From Paracoccus salipaludis (GTDB taxonomy: Bacteria; Pseudomonadota; Alphaproteobacteria; Rhodobacterales; Rhodobacteraceae), in NCBI RefSeq assembly GCF_002287065.1, contig NZ_NSJZ01000007.1, positions 62,001-126,000 on the forward strand: 64,000 nt of DNA. The letters run 5' to 3'. Shown piece after piece: positions 59,132 through 64,000 of the stretch. The translations under genes were made by a program, and so were the position numbers. The notes beneath the pieces were generated by a model. That model made no database searches. It was not told where the DNA came from and worked only from the letters and a program-made list of their open reading frames with translations. Within the stretch, counting starts at the first letter, position 1. Each line of letters opens with the position of its first letter.

Positions 59132-59926
59132 ATGTGTCGCTGGGCGGCCTATCTGGGCAGGCCGATCTTTCTTGAGGACATCGTCAGCCGGCCGGGACAT
59201 TCGCTGATCCGGCAAAGCCACGGCGCCGTCCGCTGCCAGACCCCCGTGAACGCCGACGGCTTCGGCCTTGCCTGGTATGGCGAGCGGGACGAGCCCGGCC
59301 TTTACCGCGATGTCATGCCCGCCTGGTCCGACCCGAACCTGCGCAGCCTGACGGCGACGGTGAAGTCGCCCCTGTTCATGGCCCATGTGCGCGCCTCGAC
59401 CGGCACGGCCACCAGCCGCAACAACTGCCATCCCTTTGCGGTGGGCCGCTGGTCCTTCATGCACAACGGCCAGTTCGGCGGCTATGACGGCTGGCGCCGC
59501 GCGGCCGAACTGCTGATCCCCGACGAGCTTTACCCCCACCGCAAGGGCGCGACCGACAGCGAGGCGCTGTTCCTCTGCGCCTTGGGCGAGGGGCTTCAGG
59601 ACGATCCCTGCGGCGCCCTGGCCCGCGCCACGGCGCGCTTCGAGGCGCTGGCGCGGCTGCGTGGCACCGCGCCCCATGTCCGCTTGACCTGCGCCTTCTC
59701 GGACGGACGGCGGCTTTATGCGGCACGCTACGCCACGGACGACCACGCGCCCACGCTGTTCCACCGCTGGTCCGACAGCCGGATGGGCCGGGCCGTCGTC
59801 TCCGAGCCGCTGGAAACGGACGAGGCCGACTGGCTGGAAGTCCCGCCCGGTTCCTTCTGCGTCTTCGAGGGCGAGACCGTCACGATCACGCCCTTCGTGG
59901 TCCAGCGGTTGCGCGAGGCCGCCTAG
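59132..59926 (+). CDS. Class II glutamine amidotransferase-like protein (YafJ-type)
   Basis: Ntn-hydrolase amidotransferase, 264 residues. ATG 59132 is chosen because it places Cys directly after Met ([13 protein letters not shown]), and this Cys must become N-terminal to act as nucleophile. An in-frame ATG 12 nt upstream would block it. [38 protein letters not shown] and [14 protein letters not shown] match the YafJ/EgtC-like group. Substrate unknown. Its stop codon overlaps the convergent aroC stop. Confidence 0.88.
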
Positions 59927-61023
59927 CCGATCTCGCCGCGCCGCCCGCCCGTCTGGGCGCGGTCCAGCAGCAGGTGGTCGAGGACCACGCAGGCCGCCAT
60001 CGCCTCGGCCACCGGCACCGCGCGGATGCCGACGCAGGGATCGTGGCGGCCCTTGGTCACCAGGTCGATCTCTTCGCCCGCGCGGTTGATGGTCCGGCGC
60101 GGCGTCAGGATCGAGCTGGTGGGCTTGACCGCGAAGCGCAGCACGATGTCCTGCCCGGTCGAGATGCCGCCGAGGATGCCGCCCGCATGGTTCGACAGGA
60201 ACTCGGGCCCGTTCGGACCCATGCGGATCTCGTCGGCATTCTCGGTGCCGCGCAGGCGGGCGGCGGCCATGCCCTCGCCGATCTCCACGGCCTTGACCGC
60301 GTTGATCGACATCATCGCCGCCGCAAGGTCGGTGTCGAGCTTGCCGTAGACCGGCGCCCCGAGGCCCGGAGGGCAGCCCCGGATCAGCACCTCGACCACC
60401 GCGCCGACGCTGTCCTGCTCCTTGCGGATGCGGGACAGGTAGTCGGTCCAGGCGGGGACCGCCGCTGCGTCGGGAAGGAAGAAGTCGTTGCGGGTGATTT
60501 CCTCGGGGTCGAAGCGCGAGCGGTCTATTTCCAGCTCGCCCATCTGCACCATGTACCCCGTGATCGTCACCTGTGGCGCCAGTTCCCCCAGGGCCGCGCG
60601 GGCGACGCCCCCAGCGGCGACGCGGGCGGCGGTTTCGCGGGCGCTGGATCGGCCGCCGCCGCGATAGTCGCGGTGGCCGTATTTCAGGTGATAGGTGATG
60701 TCGGCATGGCCGGGGCGGAAGGCCTGGGCGATCTCGCCATAGTCGCGCGAGCGCTGGTCGGTGTTCTCGATCATCAGCTGGACGGGGGTGCCGGTCGTCC
60801 GACCCTCGAAAACGCCGGACAGGATGCGGACGGAATCAGGCTCTTGGCGCTGCGTGGTCATCTTCGACTGGCCGGGGCGGCGGCGGTCGAGGAAGGGCTG
60901 GATCGCGGCCTCGTCCAGCGGCACGCCGGGGGGGCAGCCGTCCACGGTGGCGCCGAGCGCGGGGCCGTGGCTTTCGCCCCAGGTGGTGACGGTGAAGATG
61001 CGGCCGAAGCTGTTGACGCTCAT
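59923..61023 (-). CDS. aroC: Chorismate synthase
   Basis: Last step of the shikimate pathway: removes phosphate from EPSP to give chorismate (EC 4.2.3.5), requiring reduced FMN. 366 residues. The family signatures are clear: [18 protein letters not shown] at the N-terminus, [21 protein letters not shown], and a C-terminal [11 protein letters not shown]. Start ATG 61023. It overlaps the amidotransferase gene by 4 nt, tail to tail (CTAG). No gene is firmly seen upstream on the same strand. Confidence 0.97.
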
Positions 61024-61333
61024 GCGGAAAACCCCTTTGCGACGGCATAGGCGAGGGGGACGCGGGGCGCAACGGTGTAGGTTTCAGCGCTGACCGGCAC
61101 GGACCTGTCCGCGCCGCTGTGTGCATCGTCGTCAGCGCAGAGGGCCGATCCGCCCTTGCGTGGTGATCCATCCTTCATAGTCAGGAGCACCACCAGATGC
61201 TCGGCATCCTGTGAAACAACAGTGTCATGCCGGAGGAGCGCCGCATCGCCCGCTGCGACAGCCTCCGCGCGACGCTCCTGCCGCAGCCGGCATTGCCGCC
61301 TCGGCTTGGGCGCTTCCTGCACAGGATCGCGGC
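61024..61333. other. 310-nt stretch with no supported gene
   Basis: This lies between the aroC start and the flavodoxin-like remnant. On the minus strand an open frame of 100 codons overlaps the aroC start codon as ATGA, which would fit an operon partner, but its composition is unconvincing and no family is recognised. On the plus strand only short frames exist. Possibly eroded sequence belonging to the same decayed region as the pseudogene. Confidence 0.4.
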
Positions 61334-61772
61334 CGCAGCCTTGTGGTGTTCCTGTCGCGCTTGGGCAACATGCGGGTGCGGGCAGGCGCCCTGTTCCGCC
61401 GGTTCGGCGCGGAGAGCTGCGCCCGCGCGATCCCTGGCCTGCGGACTACGAGGAGATGATAGCTGGGGCCACGCAGATGCGCGAGCAGGACGGCGCGCTG
61501 TCGCTGGCGCCTCGGAATCTGACCGGCACCGGTGCCGTGTTCCACGGCTTGCCGATCCGGGGCATGGACCTGCCCGCCGTGACCCCCAGCTTCCTGCGGC
61601 GACGACCTGGCAGGCAGGACCGTGGTCCCCTGCGTCACGCGCGGCTATGGAGCAGGCGATGCGCTTCAGACGGCGCGCCCTCCGGCCCCGAACGCCCGGT
61701 TCCTCGCCCCCCTCGTCCTGCGCTGCGGCCATGAACGCGACACCCTGCGCAACTTGGACAAATGCCCGGCTA
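61334..61772 (+). pseudogene. Flavodoxin-like gene broken by frameshifts
   Basis: Three reading frames carry successive parts of one flavodoxin-like protein. Frame 1 gives RSLVVFLSRLGNMRVRAGAL, then FRRFGAE up to about 61412. Frame 2 gives LRPRDPWPADYEEMIAGATQ to about 61595, including GMDLPAVTPSFL. Frame 3 gives TVVPCVTRGYGAGDALQ, with VLRCGHERDTLRNLD, to about 61772. The first break sits at GGAGAGCTG, where a 2-nt duplication explains the shift; the second is near 61600. The FMN-loop (SRLGNMR for SRTGNTR) is also altered. No full-length frame remains, so the gene is very likely dead. Confidence 0.75.
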
Positions 61773-61928
61773 AGGCCCGGTTCCCCTTCGTCATGCCGAC
61801 TAACAGCAAGGCGCCGCCGGTTGACCTTGCCCCGGCACTTTGGCGTTCCGTGGTCAGGCAGCCCCGCGCCTCGGGGCAGTCAGCCTTGCCAGCCTGCCGG
61901 CTTTTCCCAAGCCGGGGCCGCTATCCCC

Positions 61929-62528
61929 TCAGGTCGTTCCGATGGGGACAGGCGCGGCGGCCTGACGGTGAAGCGTCCGGTAGACCGTCGGTCGTGAAAT
62001 CGAAAACAGTTCGGCGAGATCGCTGATCGAGTAATCGCCTGTGTCGTACATGCGCCGCAGTTCCTTCTGCTGGCGCTCGGACAGCTTGGGCTTCTTGCCC
62101 CGCAGCTTGCCCTTGGCGCGGGCCACGGCCATGCCCTCGCGGGTACGCATCCGGATGAGATCGGCCTCGAACTCGGCAAAGGTGGCAAGAATGTTGAAGA
62201 ACAGCTTGCCCATCGGGTCGTTCGGGTCGTGAACGGCCGCGCCAAGCTGCAGCCGAACCCCTCGCGCGGATAGGCTGTCGGCAATCTCGCGCGCGTCGGG
62301 AACCGAGCGCGCCAGCCGGTCGAGCTTGGGCACCACCAGCGTGTCGCCCGGACGCAGGGCTGCCAAGGCCTGATCGAGACCGGGGCGGGCGCGGTTCGTG
62401 CCGGTGAAGCCGTGGTCGGTGTAGATGCGATCCGGCGCGACCCCCAGCCCCGAGAGGATGTCCTTCTGGGCGGCGAGGTCCTGTTTGTCGGTCGAGCAGC
62501 GGGCGTAGCCGATCAGCGTATGGGTCAT
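61929..62528 (-). CDS. Serine recombinase (resolvase/invertase family)
   Basis: Site-specific recombinase of 199 residues. N-terminal catalytic domain with nucleophile Ser12 in YARCSTDKQDL, conserved Arg-rich KLDRLARSVPDAREI and FFNILATFAEFEADLI; C-terminal helix-turn-helix SERQQKELRRMYDTGDYSIS followed by SRPTVYRTLHR. Complete and apparently intact. Tn3-type resolvases and phage-like invertases share this architecture. No transposase or inverted repeat was found beside it. It marks the boundary between the core genome and the reverse-transcriptase region. Confidence 0.93.
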   Translation of the reverse strand: MTHTLIGYARCSTDKQDLAAQKDILSGLGVAPDRIYTDHGFTGTNRARPGLDQALAALRPGDTLVVPKLDRLARSVPDAREIADSLSARGVRLQLGAAVHDPNDPMGKLFFNILATFAEFEADLIRMRTREGMAVARAKGKLRGKKPKLSERQQKELRRMYDTGDYSISDLAELFSISRPTVYRTLHRQAAAPVPIGTT

Positions 62529-63088
62529 GGGTCCAGCATGTAACGCTCAAGCCCCCCTCGATGCAAAACATCCAGGTGGGACTCGGGCCGGGCAGGCATT
62601 GCGAGCCTGTCCGCATGCTCCTTTGAAGGACGACCACCGCCCCCATAGGGGCCGCGGCGAAGCGCATCCGGGTGACGATCGCGCCGGGGGAGGACGTGGT
62701 CCGCTTCTTCCGCGGCATGGGCGAGGGCCCCGCATGAACGCGGTGCGAGCGGCACCTTCATGCGCGCGGCTGGCGGGTCTTCTGCGCGGGGCGAGACGAT
62801 GGACTACCTGTCGAGCCGCGAGGAGGAGGGGCTGGACGGCCACAAGCCGGGCTGGGGCGAGGCGCAGGCGGCCTACGACGACCTCGGCCCCGACGCCGCC
62901 CGGCTGATGAGCGACGAGCAGGGGGGGGGCCTCTGGGCGAGGAGAAGCGCGCAGGCCGCGCGGATACGATGGCGTGGTTAAGGGCGCGCCCTTAAACTGG
63001 AGGAGCAAGGCTGCCGTTTTCTGAAAGAAATCTTCATTATCCATTCGTGGCATGGTAGCGATCTTCCCAAGCGTCGTGGAGGATGGAT
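62529..63088. other. 560-nt boundary stretch, mostly degenerate, with an 18-bp palindrome
   Basis: Between the recombinase start and the reverse-transcriptase start. The first part is GC-rich and holds the broken open frame listed separately, a G9 homopolymer (62921-62929) and a fragment of coding-like sequence (RIRVTIAPGEDVVRFFRGMG). A perfect palindrome, TTAAGGGCGCGCCCTTAA, lies at 62978-62995. After it the composition becomes AT-rich (63020-63088). No RNA gene is recognised, but an untranslated leader or non-coding RNA here cannot be excluded. Confidence 0.45.
62760..62995 (+). pseudogene. Short hypothetical frame broken at a poly-G run
   Basis: Coding-like sequence (MDYLSSREEEGLDGHKPGWG, then AQAAYDDLGPDAARLMSDEQ) runs into nine G at 62921-62929. 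In the native frame the downstream part looks non-coding, but one more (or two fewer) G would join GPLGEEKRAGRADTMAWLRA and stop at 62993-62995, inside the palindrome. This suggests either a recent homopolymer frameshift or a sequencing error. No family recognised; probably a fragment of a mobile-element or plasmid gene. Confidence 0.35.
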
Positions 63089-63091
63089 ATG
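63078..63091 (+). promoter_or_regulatory. Ribosome binding site fixing the reverse transcriptase start
   Basis: GGAGGA at 63078-63083, five nt before ATG 63089. The match is near-perfect and supports the start codon chosen. Confidence 0.8.
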
Positions 63092-64000
63092 GTTGAGTTT
63101 GGAAAGCCTTTTGGTCTGGACAAAGGGGTGATTAATAGTCTGAATTGGGACTTAGCTGCTCAAAAAATAATGAACGAAATCAAGTCGGATTTTATCTACG
63201 CTCCTCATATAAACGTAATTTACCGATGGAACTCGAGGGGCCTGGCGGAAATAGTTAAGGGCGAACTGCAGGGCGGAACATTTCTTCCAGGGCAGCCACT
63301 TACACTCGAGGTGCCAAAATCTGCTAGGATGAGGATAGCGACGAGGCCAGCAAGGAGCGGTCCGAACTATACTCGACCGGGGAGCATATTATTTCCTAAG
63401 GACAGAATCTTCTATCAGATATTGGCAGATGGCGCGATAGATGTGATATCTGCGAGAACGGATAAGTCTAGAAGCTTTAGTCATCATATTGATGAAGACA
63501 ACCCAGAGAAAATGTTTCGCTCTACGAGGGCATGTTGGGCTGATTTTCAAAAGGCTCTCAAGGAGTATGCAGAAGACGATAGTGTTAACTACGTAATTAA
63601 GCTCGACATCGCTAATTTCTTCTCATCGATAAACCAGCACACTCTCGTTAATATGCTTTCTGATGCTGGGTATCCTAAGACATTTGTAGACCGGTTGGAG
63701 AATGTCCTACTGACTTTTACGACCAATAGATCGTCACGCGGGATTGTGCAGGGGATGTTCCCAAGTGACATGCTTGGCAATTATTACCTTTCTCCATTTG
63801 ACAGATTCCTGAATGACGAAGGGGTGCAGTCCGCAAGATACGTTGATGATGTCTATATTTTTGTTGATTCCACCGCTTCAGCGGACGCGTTGATCCGAGC
63901 TGTCGCTCCCGAGCTTCGCAGCTATGACCTAGCTCTTAATGAAGCCAAGTGCTGCATATTCCCTAAGGCACAGTTGGTCGTTGAGGAGCCAGACCTTGAG
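63089..64000 (+). CDS. Reverse transcriptase of unknown-group/defence-associated type, C-terminus outside window
   Basis: At least 304 residues. RT motif A is IKLDIANFFSSI (Asp173), motif B is GIVQGMFPSDMLGN (Gln221, Gly222), motif C is ARYVDDVYIF (Asp253-Asp254), and motif D is LALNEAKC (Lys287). Upstream, PKSARMRIATRP and ILFPKDRIFYQILADG form the fingers region, and RSFSHHI with a following helical segment precedes motif A. There is no group II intron maturase or Avd/diversity-generating context. The gene is AT-rich with ATA, TTA and AGA codons scarce elsewhere here, so it is horizontally acquired. By family knowledge such enzymes make DNA in phage defence or abortive infection. The C-terminal part and any partner genes lie beyond the window, so the subgroup cannot be named. 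Confidence 0.88.
   Translation, partial: MVEFGKPFGLDKGVINSLNWDLAAQKIMNEIKSDFIYAPHINVIYRWNSRGLAEIVKGELQGGTFLPGQPLTLEVPKSARMRIATRPARSGPNYTRPGSILFPKDRIFYQILADGAIDVISARTDKSRSFSHHIDEDNPEKMFRSTRACWADFQKALKEYAEDDSVNYVIKLDIANFFSSINQHTLVNMLSDAGYPKTFVDRLENVLLTFTTNRSSRGIVQGMFPSDMLGNYYLSPFDRFLNDEGVQSARYVDDVYIFVDSTASADALIRAVAPELRSYDLALNEAKCCIFPKAQLVVEEPDLE

Follow-up and report, generated by a model that had tools for sequence, protein, structure and literature searches.

The reverse transcriptase (RT) gene at the end of the window, i.e., the whole stretch of 64,000 nucleotides analyzed here, is by sequence profile a further member of the catalogued group UG20, and the variable slot beside carB in which it lies is the fresher result. 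We lean towards the reading that UG20 acts as a single gene and is a DNA polymerase of the abortive-infection type, independent of a template and probably primed on protein, belonging to class 1 of the UG/Abi RTs. The observed basis for this reading is the group membership, the intact catalytic residues, the layout predicted on a homologue, the organization as a single-gene unit, and the failure of our comparisons to reveal a conserved RNA in the flanks or a recurring partner gene.

The UG20 gene and its low-GC insert

Positions refer to the window, except for those prefixed L002, the contig sequence reaching past the window (window position = L002 position + 57999). The following features make up the locus:

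59923–61023, minus strand: aroC (chorismate synthase; NCBIfam), which adjoins carB directly in genome G676
61929–62528, minus strand: serine recombinase (Resolvase and HTH_7), between the BrnA-like remnant and aroC
62731–62981, plus strand: 3' remnant of a BrnA-antitoxin-like gene with stop codon TAA at 62979–62981; the slot border in relatives
62982–64000 and on to 64760, plus strand: low-GC insert, 1,779 nt in all, delimited by its junctions, GC content, and the position of carB
62982–63082, plus strand: 101-nt leader with GGAGG at 63078–63082; not unusually structured (z 1.33)
63083–64000, ending at 64759, plus strand: UG20 reverse transcriptase gene; alternative start at 63089
63605–63607, plus strand: catalytic Asp175 in the DIANFF site, which we take to be motif A
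63839–63850, plus strand: YVDD, residues 253–256, which we take to be motif C
L002:6762–10100, reading towards the RT gene: carB (NCBIfam)

The RT gene comprises 558 codons and a stop codon, with no internal stop (63083–64759; L002:5084–6760). Its window part (63083–64000, plus strand) holds the first 306 of the 558 codons, the reading frame being open at the window edge, and the sequence past position 64000 completed the 558-aa protein and then led into carB. The four RT motifs noticed by the sequence-only reading (DIANFF, VQGMFPSD, YVDD, and LNEAK) are all found in the protein, with D175 and YVDD 253–256 intact. The sequence GGAGG at 63078–63082 abuts the ATG at 63083 and is separated by 6 nt from the one at 63089; the latter has the better Shine–Dalgarno spacing and may be the true start, and the former aligns gap-free with the starts of the clade A homologues described below.

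The contrast in base composition that had been noted before is equally clear: 46% GC in 63001–64000 versus 64–74% in the other 63 one-kilobase bins of the window. The insert itself has 47.6% GC, compared to about 70% in its surroundings, and extends from just after the stop codon of the BrnA-like gene to one base before the stop codon of carB. Its non-coding DNA consists of the 101-nt leader and 1 nt downstream, and nothing else. No direct repeats of ≥ 14 nt were found around the insert (L002:4600–7200), and a scan for sigma-70 promoters within the insert revealed nothing above chance. The RT gene is the sole RVT_1 match in its own genome (E 0.001; 187 contigs). The GC contrast, together with the host distribution of the homologues, makes horizontal transfer likely, i.e., the insert is likely foreign DNA with a horizontally acquired RT gene.

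Assignment to UG20 is based on the PADLOC profile RT_UG20 (PDLC03758), which matched the RT protein with 722.7 bits (E = 7e-218) over profile positions 1–511 of 511 and residues 9–549. The next-best PADLOC profiles also covered most of the protein and belong to the nearest groups by sequence, UG21 (198.3 bits), UG22 (182 bits), and Drt8 (153 bits), yet they score more than 500 bits below UG20. Pfam RVT_1 matched at E = 3e-17. An unknown or new RT group, which the sequence-only reading had considered, is thereby ruled out: at 723 bits, the protein falls into a named group, from which no difference emerged. The other part of that proposal, a free-standing RT of the DRT/Abi type, is borne out. 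The UG classes reportedly go back to Mestre et al. 2022; the class definitions used here were taken from papers citing that work. Among the matches listed in our literature search, which had most subscription papers outside it, no paper on the function of UG20 was found. Within the literature searched, the group is thus apparently uncharacterized by experiment, and a placement of the protein in an already characterized DRT clade was not found.

Other kinds of RT were rejected. All NCBIfam matches of the RT protein were far under their cut-offs, which applies to Drt5 (NF041750; 73.8 bits versus a cut-off of 550) and Drt4 (49 versus 450). The group II intron RT profile reached 66.3 bits versus a cut-off of 300, and the protein lacks a maturase or HNH Pfam domain, so that the earlier view of an RT unlike those of group II introns stands. 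The best NCBIfam retron profile reached 43.9 bits versus a cut-off of 235, and for both group II introns and retrons no Rfam match was obtained in 4.4 kb. A diversity-generating retroelement (DGR) was dismissed since the absence of direct repeats of ≥ 14 nt in L002:4600–7200 leaves no template/variable repeat pair, in agreement with the sequence-only reading, in which no variable-repeat target was seen. Class 3 DRTs carry a nitrilase or phosphohydrolase domain (PMC13275509, in excerpt); a Pfam search of the RT protein to E 1 yielded only RVT_1 and one match at 0.19, and a helical solenoid is predicted instead.

UG20 homologues were found at 22 loci in the searched genome contigs; two further genomes with UG20 are the same as two of these loci. 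Plasmid records with a match numbered 27, three of which cover ≥ 80% of the protein. Matches in viral contigs (seven loci) span ≤ 136 residues each, and phage records contained no UG20 RT match at 1e-5. A tree of full-length sequences only, rooted at the midpoint, divides the homologues into two clades: 12 of the 22 loci fall into clade A, with proteins 50–54% identical to that of the window, and the other 10 into clade B (32–36% identical; support 1.000). Under this rooting the window RT forms a deep branch with clade A. According to record titles, clade A is hosted mostly by Rhizobiales, plus a Nitrospirota plasmid, and clade B mostly by Rhodobacterales. UG20 is rare: full-length genes occur in 2 of 295 family genomes and 2 of 385 class genomes (E 1e-60), the window's own being counted in each. 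G282, a genome from the host's family (Rhodobacteraceae), has the same UG20 locus as Salinihabitans flavidus, without a difference in the 600 nt to each side. Stops or frameshifts interrupt three UG20 genes (L037, L047, and L048). An alignment of 18 rows, the window fragment among them, has 50 invariant columns.

Sequence conservation beside UG20 genes

The sequence-only reading had also raised a non-coding RNA template next to the gene. We compared the 600-nt flanks of 28 UG20 loci by blastn (E 1e-3, unbinned), with the identical or near-identical pairs L004/L052, L034/L045, and L057/L058 set aside. Upstream matches were limited to three sets: L041, L043, and L046, in which 67–115 nt next to the start are alike at 80–89%; L053/L054, with 99 nt upstream alike at 69%; and L042/L048, with 91 nt next to the start at 74% plus 162 nt further up at 72%. 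The only downstream match comprised 32 nt in L041/L043. A binned test (50-nt bins, shifts of 15 nt only) was applied to 14 homologue pairs, of which 13 have proteins that are 76–95% identical and one is L042/L048, with its broken partner. No bin more than 150 nt upstream reached z 2.5 in these 14 pairs; downstream, one bin did. For L035/L038, whose proteins are 88% identical, neither blastn nor the binned test revealed anything significant common to the flanks. The 162-nt stretch is non-coding (L042:5648–5809 and L048:287–448; 191–352 nt upstream of the L042 UG20 gene) and is absent within 1.5 kb upstream of other UG20 loci; the binned test missed it because its shifts were limited to 15 nt. 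As L042 and L048 also share a downstream gene, this likeness may reflect synteny.

Three Drt2 genes, from the slot and one plasmid, served as control. The Drt2 proteins of genomes G694 and G687 are 55% identical, and 211 nt upstream of their genes are 77% identical (E 2e-42); the plasmid Drt2 also matches the upstream region of both slot genes. A genome search at E 1e-80 had turned up Drt2 in just one of 398 genomes. Six UG20 leaders gave fold z-values of −0.38 to 1.33, and the Drt2 leader of G694 gave −1.61. Rfam returned no match to E 1 in 4.4 kb at the locus. Because the insert offers only a 101-nt leader and UG20 flanks are little conserved, unlike those of the Drt2 control, a template RNA flanking UG20 is unlikely on sequence grounds, and the earlier suggestion of an adjacent RNA was not borne out. 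The family-wide conserved ncRNA region of a class 2 DRT was, in contrast to the Drt2 control, not found beside UG20.

The carB slot and the neighborhood of UG20

To place the insert in context, we read outward from the carB stop codon in 58 genomes, i.e., the window's own and 57 of 99 other genomes of the genus with a carB match (17 + 40, chosen largely by carB similarity; loci L082–L098 and L101–L140). The BrnA-like gene was located by tblastn with one query; the remnant in the window has 73% nucleotide identity to L081 over 253 columns, and the L084 copy matches Pfam BrnA_antitoxin. A slot, defined by a BrnA-like gene within 3.3 kb of the carB stop codon, was present in 26 of the 58 genomes. 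In the remaining 32, other genes followed, aroC came directly (at 25 nt in G676 and 59 nt in G727), or the contig ended early. Within the 26 slots, the distance from the carB stop codon to that of the BrnA-like gene is 311–2,865 nt (median 1,721.5), and slot DNA has ≤ 57% GC in 21 of them. Cargo was common to slots only at the two Drt2 loci (tblastx 1e-6); in one further pair, the likeness is confined to 39 aa at the border.

When the 58 loci were instead filtered for low GC near carB, irrespective of a BrnA-like gene, 27 were kept, L134 being a low-GC slot outside this filter. One low-GC ORF of ≥ 110 aa was present at 17 of these loci, and two or three at the other 10. PADLOC was applied to 20 proteins from 18 of the 27 loci, not to each ORF; eight loci were left out, and the window's own is the 27th. 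Matches with E < 1e-20 were obtained at 9 of the 18 loci, namely dCTPase (dCTP deaminase), dGTPase, Drt2 (two), NsnA (three), an AriAB-type ATPase, and PDC-M43B. This is a raw count, and at five of the loci (L085, L086, L105, L112, and L113) less than half of the profile is matched. Among loci with a BrnA-like border, the raw count is 7 of 15. Of the Drt2 genes, the one in G694 (L102:4335–6734, minus strand) shares its reading frame with an integrase-core (rve) segment that follows it, the whole spanning 800 aa, and the one in G687 (L085) is broken into short ORFs.

The carB slot may be a defence-gene exchange site; if it is a true one, every occupant of an unknown family becomes a candidate defence gene. 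A published description of the slot was not found in the literature search, which had most subscription papers outside it. The serine recombinase looks like a later, local arrival, because the BrnA-like gene is cut short and the match starts of BrnA and aroC are 1,856 nt apart in the window compared to 591–710 nt in L085, L101, L102, L103, and L105. The stretch 61030–61920, between aroC and the truncated BrnA-like gene, is without a clear gene. A defence island, at whose edge the RT gene had been placed, was rejected: carB follows after one base, the housekeeping genes carB and aroC flank a stretch of 3.7 kb, and the slot holds a single gene. What remains of the initial defence-RT reading is a free-standing, most likely horizontally acquired RT of the DRT/Abi type; the new class and the island fall away, and the adjacent RNA is unsupported.

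We further surveyed the neighbors of UG20 genes at the 22 loci (up to three ORFs on either side, ≥ 130 aa), yielding 111 ORFs from a simple ORF script, some of them spurious. No partner recurred across loci (blastp 1e-8) except for one pair in L042/L048, and the commonest Pfam family was MFS_1, found in four ORFs. PADLOC matches near the UG20 homologues (E 1e-10) included, among the matches listed (the best 25 of 106 families), GajA (2 of 111 ORFs), LmuA, SIR2, and type II/III methyltransferases. At two annotated plasmid UG20 loci, there are DarT/macro-domain and SIR2 genes as well as toxin–antitoxin genes. Just upstream of the Sinorhizobium UG20 gene lies an ORF of 1,281 aa with a CHAT domain (L035:3965–7807). 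UG20 looks self-contained, sometimes located among defence genes.

Predicted layout, proposed mechanism, and known systems

Structure prediction was performed on the homologue L039, not on the window protein, to which it is 53% identical (56% to the window fragment); the input was the 18-row alignment including that fragment. The model (545 residues; pLDDT 80.9) consists of an RT part (1–302), a linker (325–352) with pLDDT < 50, and helices to the end. Modeled alone, the C-terminal domain forms 12 helices (pLDDT 94.4), and its best matches are artificial alphaRep proteins, at values (TM to query ≤ 0.71, Foldseek E 0.03 or worse, Z ≤ 14.3) that for helical repeats may reflect only a common arrangement. 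Searched alone, this domain gave generic helical repeats, with no Abi or DRT chain among the best 50 matches listed. An RT fold followed by a 12-helix HEAT-like (alphaRep) solenoid, as predicted here, is the layout of class 1 DRT/Abi enzymes: their RTs are typically fused to a HEAT-like alphaRep domain, and the studied ones need no nucleic-acid template (PMC13174585, in excerpt). Both elements are found in UG20, i.e., an RT domain with intact catalytic residues and, as predicted on L039, the C-terminal alphaRep/HEAT-like solenoid.

By analogy with AbiK, DRT4, and DRT3b, UG20 would form trimers or hexamers, would start DNA on a hydroxyl residue of its own, and would synthesize single-stranded DNA that copies no nucleic acid. 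On a signal from the phage, this DNA would accumulate or take effect, and growth of the infected cell would stop. From this analogy we infer that UG20 polymerizes DNA, primes itself, and oligomerizes, and likewise its trigger and its effect against phages. A candidate for the primer residue is Tyr329 of the YGFxxxW motif, which is a guess and one of several: all 17 full-length homologue rows have it, as does the window protein, and eight other Tyr/Ser positions are as invariant. The motif sits in the very acidic, low-confidence linker between the RT and helical domains (L039 325–352; window residue 329), which is probably disordered, judging from the model. That UG20 is an RNA-free immune polymerase primed on Tyr329 and, at the same time, that its slot takes up swapped, mostly different, often single-gene, often defence-related low-GC cargo without visible repeat, target duplication, or shared integrase, is possible but doubtful as a combined proposal.

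Three other explanations have to be weighed. UG20 could be of class 1 and produce a defined repeat, templated by the protein itself, instead of random DNA. DRT3b does so; it likewise joins an RT-like part to an alphaRep domain, of six helical units, and uses a conserved Tyr for self-priming (PMC13174585, in excerpt). We regard this as unlikely for UG20. An RNA-templated, class 2-like DRT, with its template in the leader, the mRNA, or elsewhere in the genome, would find its precedent in the related DRT2, DRT9, and DRT10 (PMC12632851, in excerpt), and the upstream likeness within L041/L043/L046, L053/L054, and L042/L048 speaks for it. However, other close pairs such as L035/L038 lack such conservation, none of the six folded leaders is unusually structured, the insert leader is short and without an Rfam match, and the same blastn test does pick up the upstream region of Drt2, which renders this explanation rather improbable.

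The RT gene could also be a decaying or non-defence passenger of a variable slot, in line with the broken copies at L037, L047, and L048 and with the nine of 18 scanned loci beside carB that have no PADLOC match below 1e-20. Its 558 open codons with all motifs intact, and the preservation of 50 invariant columns and YGFxxxW at only 50–54% identity to clade A, argue against decay, and we give this explanation little credence. The template-independent, probably protein-primed polymerase remains our preferred reading. DNA synthesis by class 1 UG RTs is untemplated and takes unusual forms, and the UG20 product was not found in print; as a single compact gene whose layout is predicted and for which a primer residue can be proposed, UG20 lends itself to testing.

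Among known systems, six entries aligned over both domains of the L039 model: DRT6 (446 residues, Z 19.5, rmsd 4.8), DRT4 (441 residues, Z 18.6), UG15 (440 residues, Z 16.9), AbiK (452 residues, Z 15.7), Abi-P2 (393 residues, Z 14.6), and AbiA (368 residues, Z 16.1). For DRT4 (UG15) and DRT6, 436–446 of the 545 model residues aligned at 13–17% identity; identity was 12–15% for AbiK, Abi-P2, and AbiA. In contrast, the alignments of DRT9 and DRT2 are confined to 251–255 residues. Much of the signal in these full-length matches may come from the RT part, over which the scores of group II and DGR RT domains equal that of DRT6. By sequence, DRT4, DRT6, and AbiK are not the nearest groups of UG20, UG21, UG22, and Drt8 being nearer. 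In excerpts of the respective papers, DRT4 and DRT6 are described as single-gene systems (PMC13213688; PMC13314766), DRT4 as Tyr-primed (PMC13314766), and AbiK and Abi-P2 as template-independent, with the solenoid in the thumb's place and sharing in the trimer contacts (PMC9508834). Drt2, of class 2, is an RT as well, is aligned over no more than 254 residues, and is found in this carB slot in two related genomes. There it has a conserved upstream region, whereas for UG20 none of that length was found bar one pair. The two occupants, Drt2 with and UG20 without such a region, illustrate how sequence alone might distinguish an RT that depends on RNA from one that apparently does not.
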